Shown here piece after piece: positions 3,560 to 64,000 of a stretch of DNA of 64,000 nucleotides. Numbering within the stretch: the first letter of the stretch is position 1; each line of letters starts with the position of its first letter. The translations under genes were made by a program, and so were the position numbers. The notes beneath the pieces are model-generated. The model did not search any database and was not told the DNA's origin. It saw only the letters and a program-made list of their open reading frames with translations. This DNA is from Dolichospermum flos-aquae CCAP 1403/13F (GTDB lineage: Bacteria > Cyanobacteriota > Cyanobacteriia > Cyanobacteriales > Nostocaceae): the NCBI RefSeq assembly GCF_012516395.1, contig NZ_CP051206.1, positions 2,896,501 to 2,960,500 on the forward strand. Reading direction: 5' to 3'.

Positions 3560-5713
3560 CTAATCACTAATTTGCATTTTGCTTAAAATTCGTCGTGAGA
3601 CATTAAAAAATACCAAACCTAAAATTGTAAAATTTGCCGATTTTAAAAGCTGCATTACTTGGGCAATTGCTACTTCTGGATTGTCAAGAACTATATGTAA
3701 ACTATTCGCAAAAATAGAAACTCTCCAAGCATCAAATTGTTGTTTTAATAGTTTAGAAGCAGCTTGATTTTGATTAACAATAATTTCTATGAGTTTTCCT
3801 GGTTGAGAATCTTTAATATAACTGGGTGAACCTTCAGCCGCGATTTCTCCAGCTACCATAAAACTCATCCGGTTACATTGTTCAGCTTCTTCTAAATAAT
3901 GGGTTGTGACTAAAATTGCTGTACCATTTCGCGCAAAATCATTGATTAGTTTCCAAAACTGACGACGTGCTAAAGGGTCTACTCCAGATGTTGGTTCGTC
4001 TAAAAATAAAATATCTGGTTCGTGCATAACAGAAGCACCAAAAGCAACCCGTTGTTTCCAACCTCCTGGTAATTGTCCCGTTAGCATATTTTCTTGTCCT
4101 TCTAACCCACAGGTAGATATGACCCAATCAATTTTTTCTTTTCTAAGTTTGCGGGTAACGCTGTAAACACCGCTATAAAATTCTAGATTTTGCAAAGTTG
4201 TTAAATCGTCATAAAGGGTAAATTTTTGACTCATATAACCAATGCGTTTTCTTAATTTGGCACTTCGCAAATTTCCGGTTTCTCCACCGAGAGAAATTTC
4301 TCCTCCACTAGCTGCTAATAATCCACATAACATTTTAATTGTGGTGGTTTTTCCTGCACAATTTGCCCCTAAAAGCCCAAATATTTCCCCATAACGCACT
4401 TCAATATTAACACTTTTAACAGCTTGAAATTTACCAAAGACCCGATTGAGATTATTCGCATAAATAGCAATTTGTGAAGATGGTAATTGGTAATTGGTAA
4501 TGGGTAATAGGGAAGAATTTTTTTCTCTATGAATATTCTCATTTATTTCTTGACTTTTATTTCCGCCACGAGAACGAGGAAATTGTAAAAATGGTGGTGC
4601 AGAACCTTGTTGTCGCAGACGAGTAACAAAGACATTTTCTAAAGTGGGTTCACCATGTTCAATATTGGGATCATATTGTTTTAGTAATTCATTTACTTGG
4701 GTTTCACCTATAGTTATATCTTCCACTAAAACATCCAAGCGATTCCTACGGAGCGCTTCGCTATCGCCAAAAGTTTGCACATCAACTACATTTGTATGTA
4801 AATTCTGCAAGAGAATTTTCTCGCTGATTTCCAAATTAGCGGTTTTTACTTCCAAACGATGTAAGCCTAAATGGTTGCGTAAAGCCGCTGGAGTGCCAAT
4901 TTCATGAATTAACTGGGCGTTGGGAATACCAGGATTGAAGCCTGTGGTCTTGGTTTGGGTTAATGCCCCTTGGATAGCACTTAATTGTTCTCGTGTGGCA
5001 TTTACCGATGCTTGACGGGCTTCTAGGGTGGCTATGGCTGTATCTAATGTAGTTTGTGATTGGTCAAATTGCTGTTGATTAATAGCACCTTCTTTGATAA
5101 GCTGTCCATAGCGATCGCGGTTAATTCTCGCTAATTTTACTTCTGCCTCTGTTTGCTTAACTTGGGCTTGTGTTTGTAATAATTGAGTCTTAGCCGCGGC
5201 TACGTTAGATTTTGCCTGTTGAATTCGTCCTTGGGTATCCCCTTCCGACTGCTGTAAATTGAGTTTTGCTTCCCTAATTTGACTATTAATTTGTTCAATT
5301 TCACTTTGCACCCTATCCACATCTGCAATTGCCTGTTGTTCATCAGATTGTGCAGATGTTATCCTAGCCTCAGTTCCTCTTAATTGTTCTTGTAATAATT
5401 GATCATTACTGTCATCTAATTTAATTAATTCTTGTCCCTTTTTAACATAAGCCCCTTCTCGGAAAGCAATTGACTCAATTCTTCCCGAACGCTTAATCCC
5501 AATTTCGGTTTCATAACCTTCAATTCTGCCACTTAGTTTCAGTGTATCTACTGCTTTTTGTGGTTGAGTTCGCCACACTGCATAACTAATACCACCTCCC
5601 ACAACTAACAACCCCAATAACAAAGGAATTGGTTTTTTACCCTTCTGCTGCTTAGATGGTGGGATAGGAACATTAGTAAAATTGTCTGGAGATATTGGCG
5701 CAGTTTGAGACAT
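3560..5713 (-). CDS. chimeric HlyD adaptor / ABC ATPase (probable deletion fusion)
   Basis: Read N- to C-terminal, residues 1-~262 are a periplasmic adaptor: one membrane helix (about 28-46), a biotinyl-lipoyl motif GRIESIAFREGAYVKKGQ and a long coiled coil. At about residue 263 (near 4920) the frame passes abruptly into the C-terminal tail of one ABC ATPase (IHEIGTPAALRNHLGL ... GEPTLENVFVTRL). After a linker follows a complete second ABC domain: Walker A GANCAGKT, signature LPGGWKQR, Walker B ILFLDEPTSGVDP, switch His in VTTHYLEEA. Relatives have separate adaptor, double-ABC ATPase and ABC-2 permease genes (YhiI/RbbA-like). Here the adaptor's C-terminus, the first NBD core and the permeases are all missing. 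The linker contains repeat-derived residues (SEALRRNR and PITNYQLP). The Walker A glycine replaced by Cys and the divergent last 25 residues also suggest decay. Translated or not, it probably cannot work as a normal exporter. Confidence 0.8.
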   Translation of the reverse strand: MSQTAPISPDNFTNVPIPPSKQQKGKKPIPLLLGLLVVGGGISYAVWRTQPQKAVDTLKLSGRIEGYETEIGIKRSGRIESIAFREGAYVKKGQELIKLDDSNDQLLQEQLRGTEARITSAQSDEQQAIADVDRVQSEIEQINSQIREAKLNLQQSEGDTQGRIQQAKSNVAAAKTQLLQTQAQVKQTEAEVKLARINRDRYGQLIKEGAINQQQFDQSQTTLDTAIATLEARQASVNATREQLSAIQGALTQTKTTGFNPGIPNAQLIHEIGTPAALRNHLGLHRLEVKTANLEISEKILLQNLHTNVVDVQTFGDSEALRRNRLDVLVEDITIGETQVNELLKQYDPNIEHGEPTLENVFVTRLRQQGSAPPFLQFPRSRGGNKSQEINENIHREKNSSLLPITNYQLPSSQIAIYANNLNRVFGKFQAVKSVNIEVRYGEIFGLLGANCAGKTTTIKMLCGLLAASGGEISLGGETGNLRSAKLRKRIGYMSQKFTLYDDLTTLQNLEFYSGVYSVTRKLRKEKIDWVISTCGLEGQENMLTGQLPGGWKQRVAFGASVMHEPDILFLDEPTSGVDPLARRQFWKLINDFARNGTAILVTTHYLEEAEQCNRMSFMVAGEIAAEGSPSYIKDSQPGKLIEIIVNQNQAASKLLKQQFDAWRVSIFANSLHIVLDNPEVAIAQVMQLLKSANFTILGLVFFNVSRRILSKMQISD
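4481..4508. repeat. heptameric short tandem repeat (TGGTAAT) inside the ABC linker
   Basis: Three exact TGGTAAT units and one variant lie in frame inside the chimeric ABC gene and encode the PITNYQLP-type linker. The same heptamer on the other strand forms the repeat at 25549-25582. It is a typical cyanobacterial STRR, here tolerated in coding sequence. Confidence 0.85.
4741..4770. repeat. small dispersed repeat inserted in frame in the ABC tail
   Basis: The 30 bases containing CGGAGCGCTTCGCTATCGC resemble the reverse complement of the GATAGCGAAGCGCTG repeats at 47162 and 47013. They encode the out-of-place residues SEALRRNR in a segment that in the family runs straight from VQTFG to RLDVLVED. 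Its length is a multiple of three and the frame is kept. Confidence 0.6.
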
Positions 5714-7443: not shown

Positions 7444-9138
7444 TTAAAACGAGAAAGTAGTCCTCACCGTACCAACAACTACATCAGGATTATTATTGGT
7501 TTGATTAGGCGCAACCAACCAAATTACACCTGGTGTAATTGAGATATGATCATTTAGTTGATACTTGTAGAAAGCTTCTAAGTGCAACGGTGTGGTGCGA
7601 TTAGGGATAGTGCTGATTACATCACTTGCACCACCTAAAAATGGTCTATATAAGGGAACGACACCGGAACGAGTAGCATAAGGGGGAACACCGACGACAA
7701 TACCTCCCAGATTACCTTGTTTACCCAAATCAGGAAAGGCTAGGGTGATGGCATAACTATACACATCAGCACTTTCGTTATCTGTTCCTGCGGATTTACC
7801 TTGTTGATTAGTATACATAAACCAACTATTAACGGCAAACTTGGGAGAAACTCGCCACAACCCCGCTACACCGTAAGCGTTAATTTCTCGTCTAGCATTA
7901 TCGGAAATTAAACTTGGTGAATTGGCGGAAATTGTTCCCACATCATTGAGGAAGGTGGGTGTTCCTGCGGTATAACCGTTGACGTAAGTTAAGCCAAAAG
8001 CTAAATTTTTGGTGGGTTGGATACTTAATTGCGCTAAAGCTGAATACCGACCATCAAAAAAGCCTCCAGCCGTTGTCCCGTTGCTGCTATCGGGTGTTAA
8101 ACCTTCTGGACTATTAGCATTTGGGGCTAAGTATCCTAAACTCAAGTTAATAGCGGGATTCAATTGATAATTTAAGCCCAAACCCGCACCTTGGGAAACA
8201 AGGCGGTAAATGGGGCTATATTGAGCAAAGGTAGAAAGTGAACCAGAACCTCCATCTTCATCACCAACTGTACTGAATACATTCGGTAAATAGTCTACGT
8301 GTTCTCCTCGATTGGCAAACACAGCCGCGCGTATTTTTTTACCTATGGGAAACTTATAACTAACAGTTCCTAATTCTACACTACCGGCTGTATCAGGGAA
8401 CTCTTGGTTAAAGGTTTGTCCGCCTTCTGGTGTGGTTTGTCTACTTCCTAAGGAAGCTAAGAAGGGATCTGCACCATAGCGAAACCCGCCAGCCCTTTGG
8501 GGATGTGGAGTGCTACCAGCTTGGAGTCTAATTTTTAGCTCATCTTGACCTGTAAAACTACTGACTAAGTTGAGGCGGACTCTGTTAGCCAAAATAGTGC
8601 TATTGCGGGGGACACCAACGTTGAAAGGATCACTATCTCCAGTTAAGACATCAGTAATGGCAAAAATCGCTTCACCGGAAAGTTTGGTAGTTGTGGAAAA
8701 TTGCTGACTTTCTAAAGTTGCGGTGCGGCTTTCTACTGCATCTACCCGCCCTCGTAAAGTTGCTAATTCTGAGGTAAATTCCTCTTGTAGCCGTTGAATA
8801 GTCGCTAAATCTTCTTTTTGAACTGCATCAGCAGTAGCTGTGGCTATTAGCTCATTAACTCTATCTAGACAAGCATTTAAACCAGCGGAAAACTCATAAC
8901 GAGTCATGGCACGATTTCCCCGGAATGTTCCATTGGGATAACCTGCTACACAACCATATCGTTCTACTAAAGATTGTAAAGCACTAAAAGCCCAATCTGT
9001 AGGTTGGACATCAGACAACTGAGAGACGGAGGTTACTTGTGCTAAATCATCGTTTTCTGCTATTTCACTAGCCCATGCTACCGGCGAAATCAAAACTACT
9101 GGGGTTGCTAAGACTAAACCTAAGAAAATTTTTAACAT
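7444..9138 (-). CDS. SLH/OprB-type outer-membrane porin (iron uptake porin family)
   Basis: ATG at 9138 follows GAGGA and is preferred to the GTG one codon earlier. About 564 residues: a signal peptide (MLKIFLGLVLATPVVLISPVAWA), one SLH domain (DVQPTDWAFSALQSLVERYG ... TRYEFSAGLNACLDRV), a coiled coil (~100-150) and a long Gly/Asn-rich beta-barrel region ending in aromatic VRTTFSF, as required for outer-membrane assembly. This is the standard cyanobacterial porin architecture; the SLH domain ties the barrel to peptidoglycan-linked polymer. The family is often named iron uptake porin, and here a perfect Fur-type box lies 55-71 bases upstream of the ATG, which supports a role in iron-starved cells. 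Divergent from lanM across that operator. Confidence 0.92.
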   Translation of the reverse strand: MLKIFLGLVLATPVVLISPVAWASEIAENDDLAQVTSVSQLSDVQPTDWAFSALQSLVERYGCVAGYPNGTFRGNRAMTRYEFSAGLNACLDRVNELIATATADAVQKEDLATIQRLQEEFTSELATLRGRVDAVESRTATLESQQFSTTTKLSGEAIFAITDVLTGDSDPFNVGVPRNSTILANRVRLNLVSSFTGQDELKIRLQAGSTPHPQRAGGFRYGADPFLASLGSRQTTPEGGQTFNQEFPDTAGSVELGTVSYKFPIGKKIRAAVFANRGEHVDYLPNVFSTVGDEDGGSGSLSTFAQYSPIYRLVSQGAGLGLNYQLNPAINLSLGYLAPNANSPEGLTPDSSNGTTAGGFFDGRYSALAQLSIQPTKNLAFGLTYVNGYTAGTPTFLNDVGTISANSPSLISDNARREINAYGVAGLWRVSPKFAVNSWFMYTNQQGKSAGTDNESADVYSYAITLAFPDLGKQGNLGGIVVGVPPYATRSGVVPLYRPFLGGASDVISTIPNRTTPLHLEAFYKYQLNDHISITPGVIWLVAPNQTNNNPDVVVGTVRTTFSF

Positions 9139-9172
9139 CACATCCTCACTGATACACCCTCATCTGATCTAC

Positions 9173-9228
9173 TTTACACAAATACTCAGATAATGATAAT
9201 TATTATCATAGTTAAGTATTTGTGTAAA
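9173..9228. promoter_or_regulatory. symmetric divergent operator with perfect Fur-type box
   Basis: ATGATAATTATTATCAT at 9193-9209 is a perfect 17-bp palindrome containing the canonical 7-1-7 Fur motif TGATAAT-N-ATTATCA. It is framed by a 14-bp inverted repeat, TTTACACAAATACT (9173-9186) and AGTATTTGTGTAAA (9215-9228), centred within half a base of the box. Each arm offers a TTTACA-like -35 facing inward with a GATAAT/ATAATA -10 inside the Fur box, so both leftward (porin) and rightward (lanM) promoters would be blocked by one repressor. Motif and symmetry are seen directly; promoter use is inference. Confidence 0.85.
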
Positions 9229-9246
9229 CACTTATCGAGTCACGTG

Positions 9247-12200
9247 ATGAAAAAAGTCAACTGTCAAGATTCTGCTTGGTTTCGGGCTATGTCATTGAAG
9301 GAAAGGATTGTAGCCAATTCGGAAGAGTTAGGATATGATTCTGAGTTGGGATATAAACGATTTCAACGCTGGAAATCGGCATCAAGCTTTGCTAATTCGA
9401 GTTTATTTGCTCAGAAGTTGGTAACTGAGGGAATAACAGAAGAGGAGTTTTGTCGTATTTTGGGACAATCTGTAGCACCGATACCTTTATCATGGGTGGA
9501 AGAAATTCAGCAAATTTATGAATATTTAGGCGAAAAAGATATTACAACTGTGCTGTCTAATTCTAGTTTATGCACACATCCTAATTTTGGGTTTTTGAAG
9601 GCGATCGCACCTTTCCTTGTTCAAGGTATGATTAAATTAGAAATTGGATTAAATAATATACAAAATATTCCTGAAACTTTAAGTGATATTCATGATGTTT
9701 TATTAGAGGGATTACCAGAAAAGCTGCTATTAATGCTGAATGCAACCTTAGTATTAGAAGTGAATATAGCTAGATTACAAGGTTTATTAACAGGTGATAA
9801 TGCCCAAGAAAGATTTTATAGCTTTATACAACGGTTACGAAATCCCGAAGTACAATTAGCATTGTGGCAAGAATACCCAGTTTTAGCTAGACAAGTCCTA
9901 GAAGAAATTAATCGCTGGGTAGAAAATAGCATAGAATTGATTCAACATCTTTCTCATGATTGGGTAGATATTTGTTACCAATTTCAGTCACCAACCAAGC
10001 TAGGAAAATTAATCAAAGTCAATCGGGGAAAAGGTGATAGCCATAATAATGGTAAGTCAGTTACTATACTAACATTTGCAAGTGGTTGGCAGCTAGTTTA
10101 TAAACCGAGATCATTAGCCATAGATGGGCATTTTCAACAACTGCTATCATGGTTAAATGCAAAAGGCTTTAAACCAGCTTTTCAGACTTTACAAATTCTC
10201 AACCGAGATAATTATGGTTGGGTAGAATTTGTGAGCTTTCAAGAATGTGATTCAGCAGAGGAAGTAGAAAGATTTTATCAACGTCAAGGTGGCTATTTAG
10301 CATTATTATATGCTTTGGAAGCTACGGACTTTCACTTTGAAAACTTGATTGCAGCGGGAGAACATCCCATTTTAATTGATTTAGAATCTTTATTTCATCC
10401 CCGTAGTAATTATAAAGGTACAGCAGCAGATACTCTAGATCGAGAGATAGTTGCAGATTCAGTATTGCAAGTTGGTTTACTACCACAGCCAGTCTGGGGA
10501 AATACTGAAGCAGCGGGAATAGATATGAGTGGTTTGGGAGGTGCTGGGGGACAGTTAACACCAGAAAAAGTCCCAAAACTGGTGCAGGTCGGGACAGATA
10601 TCATGCGGGTTGAACGTCAACAGGCTGTTATCGCAGGTAGTCAAAATCGCCCTCAACTAAATCAACAGGAAATTAATGTACAAGAATATACAGCCGCTAT
10701 TACAGAAGGGTTTACTGCTGTTTACCGAATTTTATTACAACATCGCCAGGAATTACTCAATATTTTAGCCCGGTTTGCAGAAGATAAAGTGCGTGTGGTA
10801 ATGCGTGCTAGTAGAGTCTATGCTTTATTGCTGAGGGAAAGTTATCACCCAGATTTTTTACGAGATGCCTTAGAGCGCGATCGCTTATTTGATAAACTGT
10901 GGATAGATGTAGAAAACCGTCCGCAACTGAGTCAAATAATTTCCGCAGAAATTAACGCATTGTGGAAAAGCGACATTCCCTTATTTACCACATATCCTCA
11001 TTCCCGCGATTTATACCATCAAGAAACAGGCTTACACATTTCTAACTTTTTCAACCAATCAGGAATAGAATTAGTACATCATCGCCTGAATAATTTCAGC
11101 GAAAAAGACTTACAACGACAAACATGGTTTATTAAAGCAGCTTTAGCTACTTTAGAAATGAGTAAAACTGCGGATAACCATCAAATTAGATTAGGCAAAA
11201 AAGCCTGTAATATAAGCACTATAATCCCAACAACGAAAGACCAATTCTTAGAAATAGCCTGTAAAATTGGCGACCGTTTAGAACTCCTCGCACACAACAA
11301 CGGTAAATTTGTTAATTGGATGGGTTTAAGCGTTACTCCCAATCAGCAATGGACATTAGCACCCTTGGGAACAGACTTATATGCAGGTATACCCGGTGTA
11401 GCTTTATTTCTAGCATATTTGGGAGAAATTACCCAAAATCATCTTTATACAAACCTAGCCCAAGCAGCCATAAAAACCCTAAAACAGCAACTCAAAAGAG
11501 ACTCAATTAAATTCATAGGTGGCTTTAGTGGCTGGGGAGGAATAATTTACACATATACCCATTTAGGAATATTATGGCAAAGAAAAGACTTAATAGCAGA
11601 TGCAGTTGCCTTAGTAGCAAAAATTCCCCCCTTAATTTCCCAAGATAAACAACTAGATATAATTACTGGTGCGGCTGGTTGCATTGGTAGCTTACTCAGT
11701 TTATACCAAATCGTTCCAGAGCAGTTCATTCTTGATGTCGCCAGACAATGTGGTGAACACCTCCTTACCCAAGCCCAAATTACAGATACTGGTATTGGTT
11801 GGATATCTCCAGCAGGGGGAAATCAACCCCTAACCGGATTTGCACATGGTAGTGCTGGCTTTGCTTGGGCGCTGGGAAAACTAGCCGTAACGACTGGAAA
11901 CCAAGAATTTCAAACCGCAGCCACAGCAGCAATTAACTACGAACGCAGTCATTTTGACCCTACAACCAATAACTGGATAGATTTACGGATAAAAGAGGAA
12001 AAAAATAGTTTCATGACAGCATGGTGTAGTGGTGCGCCGGGAATTGGCTTAGGACGTTTAAGTATGACAGAGAATACACCCGACTTAATCATGTATAAAG
12101 AAATTACAACTGCCATCCAAACTACCATAAAACAAGGATTTGGTGACAACCATTGTCTCTGTCACGGAGACTTAGGAAATATTGACTTATTATTAATAGC

Positions 12201-12429
12201 CAATAGCATATTAAATGATCCAGAAATTTTCCAACAAACCGAAAAAATTGCCTCTCAAATATTAGACGATATCCAAGAAAATAACTTTCTTTGTGGTGTC
12301 CCATTAGGACTAGAAACCCCAGGATTAATGACAGGTTTAGCTGGTATTGGTTACGGACTTTTACGCCTTGCTTACCCCCAAATTATCCCTTCCATTCTCC
12401 TGCTTGAACCGCCCAAACAATCATCTTAA
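9247..12429 (+). CDS. lanM: class II lanthipeptide synthetase LanM
   Basis: An in-frame ATG at 9193 lies inside the Fur box and cannot be the start; ATG at 9247 (MKKVNCQDSAWF) gives 1060 residues, usual for LanM (ATG 9289 is an alternative). The N-terminal two thirds is the DUF4135 dehydratase, which phosphorylates and eliminates Ser/Thr; visible kinase-like segments are SGWQLVYKPRSL, ATDFHFENLIAAGEHPILID and the acidic LIDLESLFHP. The C-terminal third is a LanC-type cyclase with GFAHGSAG and zinc ligands C927 (WCSGAPGIG), C972 and H973 (CHGDLGN), which adds Cys thiols to the dehydro residues. First gene of the rightward lanM-lanT-lanA-hlyD cluster. With transcription from the Fur-box promoter it should be iron-repressed. 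Confidence 0.95.
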   Translation: MKKVNCQDSAWFRAMSLKERIVANSEELGYDSELGYKRFQRWKSASSFANSSLFAQKLVTEGITEEEFCRILGQSVAPIPLSWVEEIQQIYEYLGEKDITTVLSNSSLCTHPNFGFLKAIAPFLVQGMIKLEIGLNNIQNIPETLSDIHDVLLEGLPEKLLLMLNATLVLEVNIARLQGLLTGDNAQERFYSFIQRLRNPEVQLALWQEYPVLARQVLEEINRWVENSIELIQHLSHDWVDICYQFQSPTKLGKLIKVNRGKGDSHNNGKSVTILTFASGWQLVYKPRSLAIDGHFQQLLSWLNAKGFKPAFQTLQILNRDNYGWVEFVSFQECDSAEEVERFYQRQGGYLALLYALEATDFHFENLIAAGEHPILIDLESLFHPRSNYKGTAADTLDREIVADSVLQVGLLPQPVWGNTEAAGIDMSGLGGAGGQLTPEKVPKLVQVGTDIMRVERQQAVIAGSQNRPQLNQQEINVQEYTAAITEGFTAVYRILLQHRQELLNILARFAEDKVRVVMRASRVYALLLRESYHPDFLRDALERDRLFDKLWIDVENRPQLSQIISAEINALWKSDIPLFTTYPHSRDLYHQETGLHISNFFNQSGIELVHHRLNNFSEKDLQRQTWFIKAALATLEMSKTADNHQIRLGKKACNISTIIPTTKDQFLEIACKIGDRLELLAHNNGKFVNWMGLSVTPNQQWTLAPLGTDLYAGIPGVALFLAYLGEITQNHLYTNLAQAAIKTLKQQLKRDSIKFIGGFSGWGGIIYTYTHLGILWQRKDLIADAVALVAKIPPLISQDKQLDIITGAAGCIGSLLSLYQIVPEQFILDVARQCGEHLLTQAQITDTGIGWISPAGGNQPLTGFAHGSAGFAWALGKLAVTTGNQEFQTAATAAINYERSHFDPTTNNWIDLRIKEEKNSFMTAWCSGAPGIGLGRLSMTENTPDLIMYKEITTAIQTTIKQGFGDNHCLCHGDLGNIDLLLIANSILNDPEIFQQTEKIASQILDDIQENNFLCGVPLGLETPGLMTGLAGIGYGLLRLAYPQIIPSILLLEPPKQSS

Positions 12430-12461
12430 TCTTTACACCTTTTTGCCTTTGTGTGATCAAA

Positions 12462-14606
12462 ATGAAATATCCAATAATTTTACAACATAACGAAGAAGAT
12501 TGCGGACCAGCTTGTTTAGCAACAATCTCTAAATATTACGGACAACTATTTACAATTACCCGTGTTCGTGAAGCCTCTGGAACAGGACAATTAGGAACAA
12601 CATTACTCAATCTTAAACAAGGAGCGCAGGTATTAGGATTTAATGCACGTGGTGTGAAAGCTGCATTAGAATTAGTAGATAAAAAACAAATTCCTCTACC
12701 TGCAATTATTCATTGGAAAGGGAATCATTGGACTGTTTTATATGGGCGAAAAAATCAAAAATATATCATTGCTGATCCTTTAGTTGGTGTGCGAACTTTA
12801 ACAAAAGAAGCTCTGCTAAAGGGCTGGACGAATAGTGTAATGCTACTATTAGAACCCCGTGTAGATTTTCTAGAACAACCAGATGATCGGGGAAAAATAG
12901 GAGGTTTTAAAGCACTGATACAGCGGTTTTTAAACTATCGCTTGATCCTTGCAGAAGCTTTATTATTAAATTTTGTCGTCGGGTTACTTTCCCTGTTGTC
13001 ACCGTTTTTGATTCAAATTCTCACTGATGATGTTTTAGTACGTGGAGATACCCAATTACTCACAGGTATTGCACTGGGAATATTAACAATGAGTTTTATT
13101 AGTAGCTGTTTACAATGGGTTCAAGGTAATTTAGTATCCCATTTTGCTCATCGTTTGGAATTAGATTTAGTATGGGAATTTGCTAGAAATATTTTACGTT
13201 TACCATTGTCTTATTATGAATCTCGTCGCAGTGGTGAAGTGGTAAGTAGATTACGAGATATTCAAACTATTAATCAATTGGTTTCTCAAGTTGGGGTAAT
13301 TTTACCAAGTCAATTATTAATTGCAATTACCTCCTTAATTTTGATGTTATTCTACAGTTCTCAACTGACATTAGTTTCAATATTTGTAGCTATGATTATG
13401 ACTTTTTCTACTGTCCTTTCTTTCCCTAGCTTACAACAAAAAATCCGCACCGTTCTGGGTTTAGCTTCTGAAAATCAAGGTGTATTAGTAGAGACTTTTA
13501 AAGGTGCATTAGTTGTGAAAACTACCAATGCTGCACCAGAATTTTGGCAAGAATTTCAAACTCGCTACGGAAGACAGTCAAATTTAATGTTTCTCACTGT
13601 CCAAATCGTTTTAATAAATACCATCTTTTCTAATTGGATTTCTACTGCTGGTGGGATTATTCTCCTATGGTATGGGAGTATTTTAGTTATTAATCGAGAA
13701 CTTTCTATTGGTCAATTATTAGCTTTTAATAGTTTAAATACCAATATTCTTGGATTAGTAAATACCTGCGTTCGCTTCATTACTGATTTTGCTCGCGCTC
13801 AAGCTGCAACTGAAAGATTAAATGAGGTAATTAATTCGACTCCTGAATTTTCTGAAGTTAGTCAAAAGCCTTTTGTAAATATTCCCGACAACGCGGATCT
13901 TATTTGTAAAGATATCAATTTTCATCATGCGGGTAGAGTTGATTTATTAAAGGATTTTTCTCTAACTTTACCGGGTGGAAAAGTGATTGCAATTATCGGT
14001 AAATCTGGATGTGGTAAAAGCACCTTAGCTAAATTAATTGCTAGTTTATATAATTCCCAATCTGGTAATATTCGCATTCATCACTATAACCTTTCTGATA
14101 TTAATCCTAGTTGCTTACGTCAACAAATAGTATTAATTCCTCAAGATGCACATTTTTGGAGTCGTTCTATTTTAGATAACTTATCTCTTGGTTGTCCTCA
14201 AGTTAATTTTGAGCAAATAGTCACAGCTTGTCAAGTTGCAGATGCAGATAATTTTATTAGTAAATTACCTGAAAAATATCAAACTATTTTAGGTGAATTT
14301 GGAGCGAATCTTTCCGGTGGACAAAAACAAAGATTAGCCATAGCTAGAGGTATTGTCACTAATCCTCCTATCTTGATTTTAGATGAATCTACAGCAGGTT
14401 TAGATCCCATTAGTGAAAGTTTAGTTTTAGATCGATTACTCGCTTATCGTCAAGGGAAAACTACTATTTTAATTAGTCATCGTCCAAGAGTGATTAAACG
14501 CGCAGATTGGATTGTCCTGTTAGAAGCTGGACAATTAAAACTACAAGGTACTCCTACGGAACTACTTAGCATAGCAGGTGAGCATTTAGATTTTTTGATT
14601 CCTTGA
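12462..14606 (+). CDS. lanT: C39-peptidase ABC exporter (LanT type)
   Basis: ATG 12462 is used (GTG 12453 is also open). The 714 residues are ordered C39 peptidase, six-helix membrane domain and ABC domain. Peptidase residues are C14 (EEDCGPACLA), H89 (GNHWTVLYG) and D105 (IIADP); such domains cut leaders after Gly-Gly. The transmembrane region covers roughly 155-450. The ATPase has Walker A GKSGCGKS (about 513-520), signature LSGGQKQR, Walker B ILILDEST and the ISHRPR switch His. It should remove the leader of the precursor at 14782 and export the core with the HlyD adaptor at 15083. It follows lanM by 32 bases. Confidence 0.95.
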   Translation: MKYPIILQHNEEDCGPACLATISKYYGQLFTITRVREASGTGQLGTTLLNLKQGAQVLGFNARGVKAALELVDKKQIPLPAIIHWKGNHWTVLYGRKNQKYIIADPLVGVRTLTKEALLKGWTNSVMLLLEPRVDFLEQPDDRGKIGGFKALIQRFLNYRLILAEALLLNFVVGLLSLLSPFLIQILTDDVLVRGDTQLLTGIALGILTMSFISSCLQWVQGNLVSHFAHRLELDLVWEFARNILRLPLSYYESRRSGEVVSRLRDIQTINQLVSQVGVILPSQLLIAITSLILMLFYSSQLTLVSIFVAMIMTFSTVLSFPSLQQKIRTVLGLASENQGVLVETFKGALVVKTTNAAPEFWQEFQTRYGRQSNLMFLTVQIVLINTIFSNWISTAGGIILLWYGSILVINRELSIGQLLAFNSLNTNILGLVNTCVRFITDFARAQAATERLNEVINSTPEFSEVSQKPFVNIPDNADLICKDINFHHAGRVDLLKDFSLTLPGGKVIAIIGKSGCGKSTLAKLIASLYNSQSGNIRIHHYNLSDINPSCLRQQIVLIPQDAHFWSRSILDNLSLGCPQVNFEQIVTACQVADADNFISKLPEKYQTILGEFGANLSGGQKQRLAIARGIVTNPPILILDESTAGLDPISESLVLDRLLAYRQGKTTILISHRPRVIKRADWIVLLEAGQLKLQGTPTELLSIAGEHLDFLIP

Positions 14607-14645
14607 ATTGTAATTAAGCATATTTACTCTACACGGATAAATTAC

Positions 14646-14677
14646 TTGACATTTTTTATGAGAATGATTATTATTCT
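14646..14677 (+). promoter_or_regulatory. lanA promoter overlapped by a Fur-like box
   Basis: TTGACA (14646-14651), a 17-base spacer and TATTAT (14669-14674) make an excellent sigma-70-type promoter about 100 bases upstream of the precursor ATG. TGAGAATGATTATTA (14659-14673) matches the 7-1-7 Fur motif with two mismatches, and AGAAT ... ATTCT (14661-14677) is itself a dyad. The box covers the -10. The precursor therefore has its own promoter, probably iron-repressed. Confidence 0.75.
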
Positions 14678-14781
14678 AATATTGGTGAAAATGTCATCAA
14701 TAATACTTTTACAACTGCGACTTCTAGGGAATATTTCGTTATTTCCTAGTTGAAACGTAGAGTTTTTTAATGAGGTTAAAT

Positions 14782-15006
14782 ATGTCTAATCTAGATATCA
14801 TTCGCGCTTGGAAAGACGAAGAATACCGCAACAGCTTGAGCGCAGAACAACAGGAACAACTACCAGCAAACCCCGCTGGTTTAGTTGAACTGAATGATGA
14901 AGATATGTCTTCTGTTTCTGGTGGTTGTACAACCTGTGGTAATCCTTTACATACATTATTCTGGACTTGTAAAGCTGTATCTAGTCCTTTTGATACCATA
15001 GCTTAA
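14782..15006 (+). CDS. lanA: class II lanthipeptide precursor peptide
   Basis: ATG 14782 is chosen because GAGG (14772-14775) lies 6 bases before it; an in-frame ATG at 14770 overlaps that site. The 74-residue product starts MSNLDIIRAWKDEEYRNSLS, continues with LPANPAGLVELNDEDMSSVSGG, a typical mersacidin-like leader ending in Gly-Gly after 48 residues, and has a 26-residue core. The core starts CTTCGNPL, includes TLFWTCK and ends SSPFDTIA. It holds three Cys, five Thr and two Ser, enough for up to three (methyl)lanthionine rings and further dehydro residues. It is the only precursor I see in the cluster. Ring pattern and activity cannot be read. Confidence 0.92.
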   Translation: MSNLDIIRAWKDEEYRNSLSAEQQEQLPANPAGLVELNDEDMSSVSGGCTTCGNPLHTLFWTCKAVSSPFDTIA

Positions 15007-15032
15007 TTTCATTTAATAACATTTCAAAAATT

Positions 15033-15067
15033 CAGATTCCTGACTTCTTTAAGAAATCGGGAATCTG
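15033..15067. terminator. hairpin between lanA and the adaptor gene
   Basis: CAGATTCCTGA-(C)TTCTT pairs with AAGAA-(A)TCGGGAATCTG around a very short loop, one G-T pair. No T-run follows, so it is more likely a partial terminator or RNA-stabilising element that makes lanA mRNA more abundant than the downstream gene. Similar hairpins are dispersed in Nostocales genomes (general knowledge). Confidence 0.55.
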
Positions 15068-15082
15068 GATATTATCGTCATC

Positions 15083-16576
15083 ATGAATAACACAATTCCC
15101 AATTTTTTACCAACTGCAAAATCTGATGAATACTTACCTAGCATTGGTATTTGGACAAGATTAGGAGGATTATTTTTAGTTGGTGTTTTTGGTGCTTCTG
15201 TCACTATTTCCACGTTCACAAAATATCAGCAAACTGTTAAAGCATCTGCTATTGTTCGTCCAACTGGTGAAGTGCGAATAGTGCAAACTGCTATAGAAGG
15301 AACTGTTAAAAAAATCTCCGTTAAAGAAAATCAATTAGTAAAAAAAGGTGATGTTTTAATCATTCTTGATGATATCCAATTACAAAATCAGAAAAATCAA
15401 CTCACGGTAAATATTCAGCAATCTCAATTACAAATCAGGCAATTGAATGCTCAAATTGCAGCTTTAAATCGCCAAATTGCTACAGAGACAGAAAGGAATA
15501 AACGCATAGTTGCATCTGCTATTTCTGAAGTTCAGCGGACAAAACGGGACTATCAAGATAGAAAAGTAGCTGTTAGTAGTGAATGGCAAGAAGCGCAAGC
15601 TAATATAAAGATTGCAGAAAATGAATTATTACAAGTAAAATCAGAATTGCAGTCAATTCAGGCTAATTTAGAAAGTGCAGAAGCAGGATTGAAAGCCGCA
15701 ATAGTCAAGCGGTTGCGTTATGAAGATATAGCTAAATCTGGTTCAATTTCTCAAAATCAATTAGAGGAAGTTCAACTAGCCGCAACTCAACAAGCGCAAA
15801 TTGTTGAATCACAAAAAGCCACATTAGCAAGTCAAAAACAAGTTATTCAACAAAAACAACAAGTTTTGACATCTGCAATTGCTAGAAGTAAAAAAGCAGC
15901 TTCATCTCTAAATCCTAGTAATGCAGTAATCTTTATTAGTGAAGAAAAAGTTGCTACTGAACGCGCAAATGGCAAAACTAATTTAGCGAGATTACAACAA
16001 GAAAAAGAAAGTTTAATCCAAGGTAAAATTGAAATTCAAAACCAAATAAATAATACAGAAAAAGAACTCCAACAACTTTTAACTCAGATACAAAAAACTG
16101 TTATTCGAGCTTCTGCAACTGGAACTATTTTAAAATTAGAATTGCGAAATTCTGGACAAGTGGTAAATTTGGGAAGTGCTATTGCTCAAATTTCTCCCAG
16201 TTATACCCCTTTAGTAATTAAAGCTCGTGTTGCTGCTGCTGATATTAGTAAAGTCTTTGTTTGCAATTCTCCAGAAGTAGTAAGTTGTCGAAAAGGAAAG
16301 GTAAAAATGCGATTTTCATCCTATCCTTACCCGGATTATGGTATCTTAATAGGTGCGGTGAGGTCAATTACAGCAGATGCAATTTTACCCCAAGATAATA
16401 TCACAGCAGAGGGTTATTATGAAGTGACGATTGAACCAGAAAACTTGTATTTGCAAAGAGATTTACAACAATATCCTATTCAAGCTGGAATGGAAGTTGT
16501 CGCGGATATTATTTCTGAGGAAGAGAGTGTATTAACATTTATTTTGAGAAAAACTAGGCTGTTGACAAACTTATAA
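15083..16576 (+). CDS. HlyD-family membrane fusion protein of the lanthipeptide exporter
   Basis: 497 residues. One membrane helix follows a short cytoplasmic tail (about residues 24-45, WTRLGGLFLVGVFGASVTIS), then a first lipoyl half (GEVRIVQTAIEGTVKKISVKE), a long Gln-rich coiled coil (~95-330), a second lipoyl half (KTVIRASATGTILKLELRNS) and a beta-barrel region ending ADIISEEESVLTFILRK. This is the adaptor type that pairs with C39/ABC exporters and an outer-membrane TolC protein to carry cargo across both membranes. It is 76 bases after lanA, same strand. No TolC gene is present in the window, so a shared one must serve. Confidence 0.9.
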   Translation: MNNTIPNFLPTAKSDEYLPSIGIWTRLGGLFLVGVFGASVTISTFTKYQQTVKASAIVRPTGEVRIVQTAIEGTVKKISVKENQLVKKGDVLIILDDIQLQNQKNQLTVNIQQSQLQIRQLNAQIAALNRQIATETERNKRIVASAISEVQRTKRDYQDRKVAVSSEWQEAQANIKIAENELLQVKSELQSIQANLESAEAGLKAAIVKRLRYEDIAKSGSISQNQLEEVQLAATQQAQIVESQKATLASQKQVIQQKQQVLTSAIARSKKAASSLNPSNAVIFISEEKVATERANGKTNLARLQQEKESLIQGKIEIQNQINNTEKELQQLLTQIQKTVIRASATGTILKLELRNSGQVVNLGSAIAQISPSYTPLVIKARVAAADISKVFVCNSPEVVSCRKGKVKMRFSSYPYPDYGILIGAVRSITADAILPQDNITAEGYYEVTIEPENLYLQRDLQQYPIQAGMEVVADIISEEESVLTFILRKTRLLTNL

Positions 16577-31109: not shown

Positions 31110-31904
31110 AAAAATAATTGCTTTGTTGTCTTCTTAGAGTCTAACTAAAACAGTGATTTTGGCAACAAATATCAATTAATTGTTACAAACAAGAAACTCT
31201 AACCCAGATTTCCTCCCAAAGGAAAAAATCATTCCCAGACCAAGGGTAGTTTAATAAAAATAAATAAACCTGAAGCGATCGCTCCCAATCCCCCACATCA
31301 CGTTATGATCAGAAGGAATCACAATAATCTGTGCCAATAAATTCTCAGCATCTACCGTCAGTAACCCAGCCCTAAAGGGACTGGGCTTGCAAGAGTAATC
31401 AAGCAAGCCGTGCTGACCAGACCACCCTGAGTGACCTGCCCTGAGCGGTGTCGAAGGGAGTCGAAGGGTAGCCGTTATTTGAGCCACGACACCCCGGAAT
31501 GCGTAGCCCCTTCGGGGTTCAGCAGTCGCTCATGGGGGAAACCCCCAAGACCGCGCTGCTTCACTAGTTCCCTCCTCTGTCATTTGCAATTAAACAGTTT
31601 TAAGGTCACTGAAACAGTGTTGCAAGTCTAAAAAGCTTTTATAACTGGTCGTTCGCGCAGCGTGCCGGAGGCATCTAGCTAACATTACCCCAGAAATGGG
31701 AGGCTCTTTGGAGCAAAACATTATGCGTACAGAGTTGGAAAATTTGAATCGGTAATTGTCCCGTTGAAAGTACATCACAAAAGTACCCCGAATTTTTCAA
31801 CTCCAAGGCGGTAATGAAAAAATATTCAAAGCGGTTAAAACCGCCCGTGTCGCTTCCCTCTCAGGTCTAAAAACTCGCTCGTTTCCCACTTACCGCAAGG
31901 TCTT
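31110..31904. other. repeat-rich spacer before mutS
   Basis: No gene is credible in these 795 bases. They hold a stem CAGCCC/GGGCTG-like hairpin at about 31365-31390, a block of CTGAGCGGTGTCGAAGGG-type palindromic sequence (31430-31470), a GC-rich stretch with GAATGCGTAGCCCCTTCGGG (about 31498-31517), and a GTTCGCGCAGCGTGCCGG motif near 31650. These look like remains of small mobile elements. The mutS promoter must lie in the last ~100 bases, but no clear one is seen. Confidence 0.5.
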
Positions 31905-52677: not shown

Positions 52678-52784
52678 AAATTTGCCAAAATTTTCCCAAA
52701 ATAAACACACAAACTATTTTTCAAAGCTATAATGAGTTAGTTGCACTACGACGATTGGTGACTGCCGTCAAGTTTTTTGATCTA

Positions 52785-52945
52785 TGTCTTTAACAACAAG
52801 GGAGCTAAACAATTCTCGTGGCAGTATACTGGGCTTGTACCCAGAAACTTTAAATGAGAACCCTCAGTTCCCACCTGGTTTAACCAGGTCATAAACTTAG
52901 GTAAAACGGCGTTGTGGTGAACTAAAAAATTTTAGCTCCCCGGTT
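52785..52945 (+). ncRNA. ssaA: 6S RNA
   Basis: Directly downstream of purK, where cyanobacterial 6S RNA genes lie. The closing stem is GGGAGCTAAA (52800-52809) paired with TTTAGCTCCC (52931-52940). Inside are the arm CTGGGCTTGTACCCAG (52829-52844), the hairpin CACCTGGTTTAACCAGGT (52872-52889) and the GCGTTGTGGTGAACT 3' strand. 6S RNA mimics an open promoter and binds RNA polymerase holoenzyme in poor growth. Exact ends are estimated; the 5' end may lie up to 25 bases further left. Confidence 0.85.
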
Positions 52946-61225: not shown

Positions 61226-62872
61226 ATGAAAAATCAGGGTTTTCATATTTCTCGTTTATCTTTACAAACCAGCCTGACAGCTTTGTTATTAGTTGCTGGT
61301 AGTTCTACCCTCATACTCAGTCAACTTAAAGCTGGCGCTGCTCCAACTTTAACAGCCCAAGTGCCAGCCAATGGCACTGTCATTTACGTTAACTCTGCCA
61401 CTGGAAAAGATACTGCCGCTAATGGAACTACAGCAGCCCCCTATAAAACCATCACCTTTGCCCTTTCTAAAGCTACAGCCGGGACAGTTGTTCAGGTTGC
61501 CCCTGGGAACTATAGTAAAGAGAGTGGTGAAACATTCCCTCTTGTCCTCAATTCTGGAGTGACGCTTCAAGGTAATGAGTCTAACAAGGGTGAGGGAATC
61601 TTAATTAGCGGTGGTGGTTATTACACTAGTCGCACTTTTGCCAGACAGGATATTACACTGTTAGCGAATAATAGCACTATTATTACAGGTTTAACTTTTA
61701 CCAACCCGAATTCACGGGGAACGGCTGTATGGGTAGAATCCAGTAACCCGGTGATCAAAAATAGCACATTTATTAACAGTGTCAGAGAAGGAATTTTTGT
61801 GACAGGTACGGGAAATCCCCAAATCGAAAATAACATCTTTTTGAAAAATAAGGGCAATGGAATTTCTGTAACTAAATCTGCCCAAGGTGTGATTCGTGGC
61901 AATTTATTTCAGGATACTGGTTTTGGTGTAGCAATTGGTGGTAGTTCTACACCTTTATTAGAAAGTAACAACATTACCCAAAACACAGACGGTCTTTTTA
62001 TCTCGGAAACTGCCAAACCTATCCTCCGTAAAAATTCCATTCGCGGTAATAAACGGGATGGTATTGTCGCTACTATTAGTGCAGTTCCTGACCTGGGTAC
62101 AAGTGAAAATCCTGGTGGCAATCTCATCCGTGATAATGCTCGCTATGATTTGAACAATGCTACTAAAGCTGGCAAAATTGTCGCTATTGGTAACGATATC
62201 AACGAGAAGCGGATTTTTGGTGCTGTTGATTTTGTCGCGGCTAAAGTGACTACACCTCCCGATAACAATACTGGGAATACTGGAAATACTGCTTTTAAAG
62301 ATGTGCAAACAGGTTACTGGGCAAAAGCTTACATTGAAGCTTTAGCTGCCAAAAATATTATCGCTGGTTTTCCAGATGGTAGTTTTAAACCCAATGAACC
62401 TGTAACTCGCGCTCAATTTGCTGCTATCATAAATAAGGCTTTTAAACCTTCAGCAACACGCCAAGGAATTGCTTTTAAAGATGTTAAAAGCAATTATTGG
62501 GCTTATAGCGCCATTCAAACTGCTTCTAGTAGTCCGTTTCTATCTGGTTATCCCGATTTAACTTTTAAGCCAGAACAACAAATTCCTAGAGTGCAAGCCT
62601 TGGTAGCTTTAGCTAATGGTTTGGGTTTAACTGCGAATGGTCAGACTGTGATTAACTTCTATACTGATGCTAGTCAAATTCCCAGTTATGCAGTTGGTCC
62701 AGTAGCAGCAGCAACTTCACGGCAATTAGTTATTAATTATCCCACTGTTAAAGAGCTTGCACCTAAGCGTCAAGCAACTAGAGCGGAAATTGCGGCTTTT
62801 GTATATCAAGCCTTGGTTAATGCTGGTCGTGTTCAAGCAATTAATTCTCCATATCTGGTAACTGGCAAGTAG
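61226..62872 (+). CDS. secreted beta-helix (DUF1565) protein with SLH domains
   Basis: Start at 61226 (MKNQGFHISRLSLQTSLTAL), which opens a signal peptide; the frame extends up to 61148. About 548 residues: DUF1565/parallel beta-helix region (~35-330: VNSATGKDTAANGTTAAPYK, NSTIITGLTFTNPNSRG, RNSIRGNKRDGIVA), linker, then two to three SLH repeats (FKDVQTGYWAKAYIEALAAK, GFPDGSFKPNEPVTRAQFAA, FKDVKSNYWAYSAIQTASSS, FLSGYPDLTFKPEQQIPRVQ). It is bound to the cell wall through the SLH repeats; the helix may bind or cut polysaccharide, but no catalytic residues are evident. Confidence 0.9.
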   Translation: MKNQGFHISRLSLQTSLTALLLVAGSSTLILSQLKAGAAPTLTAQVPANGTVIYVNSATGKDTAANGTTAAPYKTITFALSKATAGTVVQVAPGNYSKESGETFPLVLNSGVTLQGNESNKGEGILISGGGYYTSRTFARQDITLLANNSTIITGLTFTNPNSRGTAVWVESSNPVIKNSTFINSVREGIFVTGTGNPQIENNIFLKNKGNGISVTKSAQGVIRGNLFQDTGFGVAIGGSSTPLLESNNITQNTDGLFISETAKPILRKNSIRGNKRDGIVATISAVPDLGTSENPGGNLIRDNARYDLNNATKAGKIVAIGNDINEKRIFGAVDFVAAKVTTPPDNNTGNTGNTAFKDVQTGYWAKAYIEALAAKNIIAGFPDGSFKPNEPVTRAQFAAIINKAFKPSATRQGIAFKDVKSNYWAYSAIQTASSSPFLSGYPDLTFKPEQQIPRVQALVALANGLGLTANGQTVINFYTDASQIPSYAVGPVAAATSRQLVINYPTVKELAPKRQATRAEIAAFVYQALVNAGRVQAINSPYLVTGK

Positions 62873-63773: not shown

Positions 63774-64000
63774 ATGTTAGGTTTACTAGAAAAGTTGAGT
63801 TGCTGGGAAGAATTAACAAGTCAATCAGCATTAGATAATGTTGATTCTGACCAAATTTTACTGATGAATGGGATTAACTGGAATATATATGAGACAATGT
63901 TACAGAGATTTGAAAATACTTCTCATTATCGGTTTAAATATTTAGAAGGTACTTTAGAAATAATGTCTCCTAGTCGTCGCCATGAGTTTGATAAAAAGCT
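63774..64000 (+). CDS. Uma2-family (DUF820, PD-(D/E)XK fold) protein, partial
   Basis: ATG three bases after the HsdM-fragment stop. The 75 residues before the window edge include NGINWNIYETMLQRFENTSH, YRFKYLEGTLEIMSPSRRHE and FDKKL. The sequence LEGTLEIMSPSRRHE is the N-terminal signature of the Uma2/DUF820 family, which is greatly expanded in cyanobacteria and has a restriction-endonuclease-like fold of unknown role. The catalytic centre lies beyond the edge. It could have used the methylase gene's promoter. Confidence 0.8.
   Translation, partial: MLGLLEKLSCWEELTSQSALDNVDSDQILLMNGINWNIYETMLQRFENTSHYRFKYLEGTLEIMSPSRRHEFDKK

Follow-up and report, generated by a model that had tools for sequence, protein, structure and literature searches.

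A class II lanthipeptide locus with Zur-like operators and a divergent porin in Dolichospermum flos-aquae, and its possible role in zinc acquisition

Enzymes of non-ribosomal peptide, opine or other types make the metallophores coelibactin, ethylenediamine-disuccinate and pseudopaline. Their clusters, in Streptomyces, Amycolatopsis and Pseudomonas, respectively, are given as Zur-controlled in PMC6103462. A similar arrangement is predicted here for a 64 kb stretch (the window) of the 5.2 Mb genome of Dolichospermum flos-aquae CCAP 1403/13F. It contains a complete class II lanthipeptide (lan) locus, lanM-lanT-lanA-hlyD on the + strand, with a porin gene divergent from it on the - strand. As in the described clusters, the biosynthesis genes of a small secreted product stand under Zur, here by prediction; in Pseudomonas, a TonB receptor does so as well. 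Unlike those metallophores, the product here is ribosomal in origin, a class II lanthipeptide, and a putative zinc binder. ZepA of Anabaena sp. PCC 7120 is likewise a Zur-controlled secreted factor for zinc acquisition in a heterocystous cyanobacterium; it is a whole exoprotein, however, not a modified peptide. Two of the 22 TonB receptors of the ZepA cell, Alr3242 and Alr4028-4029, are Zur-controlled, and only these (PMC10957091). With the mersacidin/lichenicidin class II lanthipeptides (TIGR03898, TIGR03897; LicM2, 6st5), the locus shares the leader, LanM and the C39-type LanT. It differs from that family in its Zur-like operators, the Cys/His core pattern, the HlyD adaptor and the divergent porin, and one related clade of synthetases lacks the cyclase zinc ligands. 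The porin resembles the cyanobacterial OprB-type porins (NF033921), with SLH and OprB domains and several paralogues in the genome, but its gene and that of a lanthipeptide synthetase share one Zur-type operator. Another porin, related to it, is divergent from znuA. We know of no natural role for most cyanobacterial lanthipeptides. No link of a lanthipeptide or lantibiotic to Zur or to iron starvation was found among the matches listed in the literature searched, which is not proof of its absence.

The reading preferred here, with a probability of roughly 60%, is a Zur-repressed lanthipeptide, induced by zinc starvation, which would bind zinc outside the cell and be made together with a zinc-entry porin. 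Control of the lan cluster and the porin by Zur is well supported by sequence, and we infer the zinc-scavenging (zincophore) role of the peptide. The genes, the promoter-like sites, the operators, their likeness to the boxes of zinc genes, their conservation and the association of the box with histidine in the core are all read from sequence. Together, the zinc-type operator, the zinc-gene neighbours in relatives and the ligand-like core offer a directly testable role for this group of lanthipeptides; if the reading is true, the chemistries known for Zur-controlled metallophores would come to include ribosomal peptides.

Between porin and lanM lies a perfect 17-base inverted repeat, ATGATAATTATTATCAT, at 9193-9209. 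An earlier note on this DNA had called it a perfect Fur palindrome; the palindrome is confirmed, the name of the regulator is not. Overlapping the palindrome, GATAATGATAATTATTATC at 9189-9207 agrees at 18 of 19 positions with the E. coli Fur consensus, and in a pattern scan it was the sole zero-mismatch copy in the genome. When up to three mismatches were allowed, the reversed control pattern was almost as common genome-wide (18 vs. 21 matches); hence, only close matches carry meaning, and this tally was discarded as evidence. The Zur-like operator itself spans 9188-9208. In a pattern scan, the second hexamers of the putative lanM promoter (TTTACA-16-GATAAT, 9173-9200, +) and of the putative porin promoter (TTTACA-18-AATAAT, 9199-9228, -), each scoring 10/12, fall within it. 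The metal-starvation operator of Fur-superfamily type thus spans both divergent arms, as had been proposed. The window also has 14-base outer arms at 9173-9186 and 9215-9228, of which relatives keep mainly the TTTA/TGTAAA ends (-35 boxes); the GTGTAAA of the putative porin promoter is invariant in the porin/lanM alignment. A promoter of its own with a second box had likewise been claimed for lanA, and this holds. The putative promoter TTGACA-17-TATTAT (14646-14674, +; 11/12), with TTGAC invariant in nine aligned loci including the window, has its second hexamer (-10) covered by a second Zur-like operator at 14659-14679, and the arrangement is conserved in relatives. Promoter-like pairs as such are no commoner than chance in the stretch of the locus (30 vs. 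22.6 +/- 5.1 in shuffles). The boxes are: a 17-base Zur-like pattern with at most two mismatches has 11 matches in the window, compared with a mean of 2.0 and a maximum of 7 in shuffles. The two lan operators account for six of these matches, in overlapping registers, and are the sole sites with zero mismatches in the window. Within 350 bases 5' of lanA, the best Zur score is 15/16, while only 2 of 2000 Markov-resampled sequences reached 14 and none reached 15.

With an operator of Fur-superfamily type, the question becomes which member of the superfamily reads it. The putative cyanobacterial Zur box has been given as NTNANAATGATNATCATTNTNAN (PMC9337993) and the Anabaena FurA consensus as AAATAAATTCTCAATAAAT (PMC4005646). 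Against the former, the porin/lanM operator scores 14/16 and the lanA operator 15/16. Against the latter, both score 13/19 (in stretches of 160 and 181 bases), which is not above the background of 11-15/19 in the 600-base upstream stretches of flavodoxin and ZnuA-like genes. A matrix was made from 17 boxes before znuA, cobW, hemB2 and thrS2, chosen by their likeness to the Zur consensus and including no lan site. Over the window, it ranks the lanA operator first (23.5 bits) and the porin/lanM operator second (23.2 bits), the next match reaching 15.1 bits. Elsewhere in the same genome, a TonB receptor-DUF7676-Peripla_BP_2-FecCD operon is headed by a box of 23.2 bits that is outside the training set; the box before znuA, a member of that set, has 22.6 bits. 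Flavodoxin is an iron-starvation gene, and the 16 flavodoxin promoters gave at most 12.2 bits, i.e., no box; one of them comes from the window's genus and none from its genome, where the flavodoxin model has no match. The Anabaena Zur regulon includes znuABC, TonB receptors, cobW-type genes, hemB2 and thrS2 (PMC6103462), and these kinds of genes also bear the box in the genomes examined here.

Iron starvation, which the earlier note had taken as the inducing signal, is not borne out: the lan boxes fit Zur and not FurA, zinc genes share the box, flavodoxin promoters are without it, and zinc genes adjoin the cluster in several relatives. Iron control is disfavoured on this basis. Control by FurA would explain the 18/19 agreement with the E. 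coli Fur consensus, Fur and Zur boxes being alike, and since Zur regulates furA in Anabaena (PMC10957091), some cross-talk of the regulons is conceivable. However, the Anabaena FurA consensus differs, and the flavodoxin promoters and zinc genes speak against this alternative, which is considered highly improbable. The name "iron uptake porin" of NF033921 was discarded as an argument for iron; it is a family label, shared by several paralogues in the genome, and therefore no evidence. There is a trap here: in these cyanobacteria, a "Fur box" of the E. coli type may be a sign of zinc.

Of 192 family genomes, 45 yielded a LanA homologue, and 20 regions were taken for comparison; the related loci belong to heterocystous cyanobacteria. 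Nine of these regions (L032-L040) share one arrangement: porin, box, lanM, lanT, box, lanA, hlyD. Their boxes match the E. coli Fur 19-mer at 16-18 positions (porin/lanM) and 14-17 positions (lanA). The porin/lanM operator is conserved across 10 aligned loci and the lanA operator across nine, the window included in both cases; besides the boxes, the most conspicuous parts of the alignments are the -35 ends and the beginning of the porin. Four of the nine loci carry one damaged gene: a deletion in lanM (L034), an interrupted porin (L035), a stop within lanM (L036, Fischerella thermalis PCC 7521) and an hlyD split in two (L040). All genes are open in L032 (Anabaena sp. UHCC 0204) and L037 (cyanobacterium PCC 7702). 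A porin orthologue (E <= 1e-150) is present in 14 of the 192 genomes; 11 of these have a lan locus (decayed in one), one has lanM only, one has lan remnants, and one is undecidable at a contig end. A class-wide search of 388 genomes gave 10 with any match, among which only G195 and G519 add new boxed loci, and no relative was found among viral contigs. Decay of the cluster was also noted in several genomes: the genes of L041 (Trichormus sp. NMC-1) are fragmentary, and L271 and L270 hold remnants beside the porin.

Zinc genes adjoin the cluster in several relatives. In G148 (L204/L205), lanA, hlyD and a piece of lanT lie amid znuA, znuC, znuB, cobW, hemB2, thrS2 and TonB receptors, many of them boxed; its 39.7 kb contig contains no lanM. 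G073 (L206), which is of the window's genus, has znuA and znuCB, with a 15/16 box, after hlyD, and its lanA box scores only 13/16. In G002 (L270), znuCB-[15/16 box]-znuA adjoins porin-[14/16 box]-lanM, the remaining cluster genes being absent. Near the cluster of Gomphosphaeria (L082) are znuA/znuC, near L044 thrS2 and cobW, and near L223 cobW. The link with the porin is firmer than that with the zinc genes. Among named loci with equal flanks (63 loci minus the decayed L074 and 15 non-cyanobacterial loci), the porin is present in 7 of 13 boxed and in 0 of 34 unboxed ones. In addition, a related porin is divergent from znuA in all 16 znuA orthologue loci, each with an upstream Zur-like site of at least 13/16; the other four of these 20 loci hold other ZnuA paralogues, without an adjoining porin. 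One such pair occurs in the window's own genome, where a second OprB porin (C1:888009-889580, -) is divergent from znuA (+, from about C1:889828; L200), with a Zur-like box between them.

This tight linkage of porin and lan genes would also suit a peptide that acts as a periplasmic or surface zinc buffer or chaperone, or as a regulator of the co-induced porin, without being re-imported as a metallophore. The type A cluster has no dedicated receptor, and export of the HlyD type is compatible with retention. However, the type B loci L044, L045, L046, L048 and L049 have no such porin in the stretches examined, and two of them adjoin a TonB receptor operon; this explanation is quite unlikely.

Putative zinc binding by the peptide is suggested by the pattern of its core. 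From the loci examined, 70 non-redundant cyanobacterial LanA precursors were gathered by a motif script and called boxed at a Zur score of at least 14/16 within 350 bases of lanA. Their distribution is bimodal, with 22 precursors at 14-16, one at 13 and 47 at 12 or below. Histidine is present in the core of all 22 boxed precursors and of 9 of the 48 unboxed ones, which include a spurious open reading frame (L046), an empty core (L128) and a wrongly cut core (L216). The association has a Fisher p = 2e-11, with kinship ignored. One of the unboxed precursors with His in the core, L048 (13/16), adjoins znuABC. The boxed cores have exactly three cysteines in 20 of 22 cases, two in one and four in one. 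They are roughly of four kinds: [C/H]xxCG[ND]PxHTx4-5C, which is common to the window and L032-L040; HTxTxCxHCC with looser forms; CTTCTG...HT...C; and CxCG...C...HH. In a manual reading, His occupies the first Cys position in the Nodularia copy (L038), three residues ahead of the second Cys, although the automatic alignment places it otherwise. Such a Cys-to-His swap would be of the kind seen at zinc sites.

A different use of the same peptides would be as a Zur-controlled lantibiotic, a weapon against competitors for zinc under zinc shortage, with the porin as an independent gene for zinc entry under the shared operator. Antibacterial activity is frequent among class II lanthipeptides, TIGR03898 takes its name from the antibiotics mersacidin and lichenicidin, and the cores vary between clades, as those of weapons would. 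Nevertheless, all core types retain His and about three Cys, and the neighbours in relatives are zinc uptake genes. No immunity gene was recognized among the neighbours scanned, the scans covering only some of the open reading frames. The ABC protein encoded at 3560-5713 scores 133.7 with the lantibiotic protection model TIGR03740 (cut-off 309.75), and many other ABC models match it too. A lantibiotic is regarded as unlikely.

The synthetases were compared in a set of 64 LanMs (21 boxed, 43 unboxed), left after 12 short and 9 duplicate sequences had been dropped. A LanM was labelled boxed by a lanA or lanM box, which includes L048 (13/16) and L270 (without lanA). In a quick maximum-likelihood tree, the 21 boxed LanMs are placed in three starred clades, with 6, 7 and 8 members, the stars being less certain owing to long rows in the set. 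The boxed state can be explained by one change, with a support of only 30; a single origin of the boxed LanMs is thus neither shown nor excluded. Columns of the LanC domain were read against LicM2 (6st5) at three positions that we take to be the zinc ligands. Among the unboxed LanMs, 41 have C-C-H and two are gapped. The boxed ones comprise 14 with C-C-H, five with S-C-N, one with S-G-N and one with N-C-S. The seven altered proteins (L040, L075, L076, L087, L098, L222 and L223) make up exactly one starred clade, and the dehydratase motifs examined are present in all of them. Zur-controlled zinc-free paralogues spare zinc. A LanM lineage under Zur-like boxes without the zinc ligands of its cyclase could do the same, or it could leave core thiols free for zinc; the clade poses the question of whether such a synthetase cyclizes without zinc or is meant not to. 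A broader proposal would be that Zur-repressed class II lanthipeptides with zinc-binding Cys/His cores form a family of ribosomal zincophores that is widespread in cyanobacteria. In one clade of this family, the synthetase would have dropped its cyclase zinc (C-C-H to S-C-N) to work without the metal or to free core thiols. This wider proposal is tentative, with somewhat less than even chances.

How the zinc would return to the cell is suggested by other Zur-like boxes. The window's cluster contains no dedicated uptake receptor; the TonB operon preceded by a Zur-like box is located at another place in the genome, with the box at C1:4712361 (L202 3862). Such operons adjoin lan genes in G071 and G148. 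DUF7676, the marker of this operon, occurs in 12 of 15 genomes with a boxed lan locus and in 64 of 177 others (p = 0.0015, uncorrected), and is absent in G117 (whose lanM has a deletion), G032 and G073. As the marker is also found in many genomes without lan genes, the operon is no dedicated receptor. Under the zinc-scavenging reading, Zn-Zur (FurB) would sit on the porin/lanM and lanA operators when zinc is sufficient and block all three promoters; when zinc falls, porin, LanM, LanT, HlyD and LanA would be made. LanM would dehydrate the Cys/His/Thr-rich core and cyclize it where the cyclase is intact. LanT would remove the leader and export the peptide together with HlyD and a TolC partner from outside the locus. 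Outside the cell or in the periplasm, the peptide would bind zinc through Cys and His, and the metal would return to ZnuABC either as the free ion via the co-induced porin or as a complex via the TonB receptor operon. In this scheme, binding and repression by Zur, zinc binding by the peptide and the import route are all putative. That the peptide might be a metallophore was already a sensible guess of the earlier note, but iron as its metal does not agree with the Zur-like boxes and the zinc-gene neighbours.

Several observations weigh against the zinc-scavenging reading. The training boxes of the matrix were themselves selected by likeness to the Zur consensus, and the box threshold for the precursors was fixed once the scores had been viewed. 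As one change of state suffices on the LanM tree, box and His could have a common origin, and the significance given by the Fisher p is inflated. In a first ZnuA control (best match per genome, 30 loci), two loci reached 13/16 and none scored higher. These loci were taken, without proof, to be mainly another ZnuA-like paralogue; among 22 other ZnuA loci, two of them from the window's genome and 20 from further matches, 17 score at least 13/16, and in L273 and L276, the best Zur-like site differs from the one common to the other znuA loci. The Zur of the window's genome is a putative assignment among three FUR proteins, made by resemblance. In the library and the PDB it is matched best by PerR and Fur, the library matches all being below cut-off. 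In the equal-flank set, zinc genes occur at two of the 13 boxed loci and at one of the 34 unboxed ones, a difference that is not significant by itself (p = 0.18). The LanM of the window keeps its own zinc site (C-C-H), awkward under zinc starvation, and if it turns all Cys into thioethers, only His, carboxylates and the backbone would be left as zinc ligands. A peptide of ~26 residues could hardly pass through a porin, and no TonB receptor lies within the window's lan cluster. Finally, with a damaged gene in four of nine orthologous loci, the trait is dispensable.

The gene order lanM-lanT-lanA-hlyD, divergent from an SLH porin, had been read from the open reading frames before, and the family profiles agree with it. 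The SLH/OprB porin (7444-9138, -) matches Pfam OprB (8.9e-51) and SLH (2.5e-8), as well as NCBIfam NF033921 with 527 bits. The synthetase gene lanM (9247-12429, +) has 1070 bits with TIGR03897 (cut-off 304), and LicM2 (6st5) matches at 3.4e-142. Both the DUF4135 dehydratase and the LanC cyclase domains are present (TIGR03897, Pfam), with the dehydratase motifs and the C-C-H ligands (WC..., CHG) retained. The ATG at 9247 is the most likely start of lanM, since the longer open reading frame would begin at 9193, within the operator and palindrome, and 9247 better suits the alignment of most relatives. The product of lanT (12453-14606, +) is an ABC exporter with a C39 leader peptidase (Pfam C39, 3.9e-35) and ABC membrane and ATPase domains. 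The precursor gene lanA (14782-15006, +; TIGR03898, 75.7 bits, cut-off 23.5) encodes a double-Gly leader and the core CTTCGNPLHTLFWTCKAVSSPFDTIA, with Cys and Ser/Thr as in mersacidin-family precursors; a further in-frame ATG lies upstream of its start, at 14770. With lanT, hlyD (15083-16576, +), coding for a periplasmic adaptor, supplies the dedicated exporter genes of the cluster; it matches Pfam HlyD_3 and Biotin_lipoyl_2, while its 150 bits with TIGR01843 are below the cut-off of 208.65.

Elsewhere in the window, the ABC protein at 3560-5713 (-) is a single open reading frame of 717 aa, in which an HlyD-like coiled-coil part is fused to an ABC ATPase. The third-best zinc-matrix match (15.1 bits, 63911-63931) lies downstream of a weak match to the SLH region of the porin at 62279-62440. 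Two RNA matches were recorded on the + strand, a HEARO RNA at 31357-31688 (92.2 bits) and a 6S RNA at 52740-52924 (97.6 bits).

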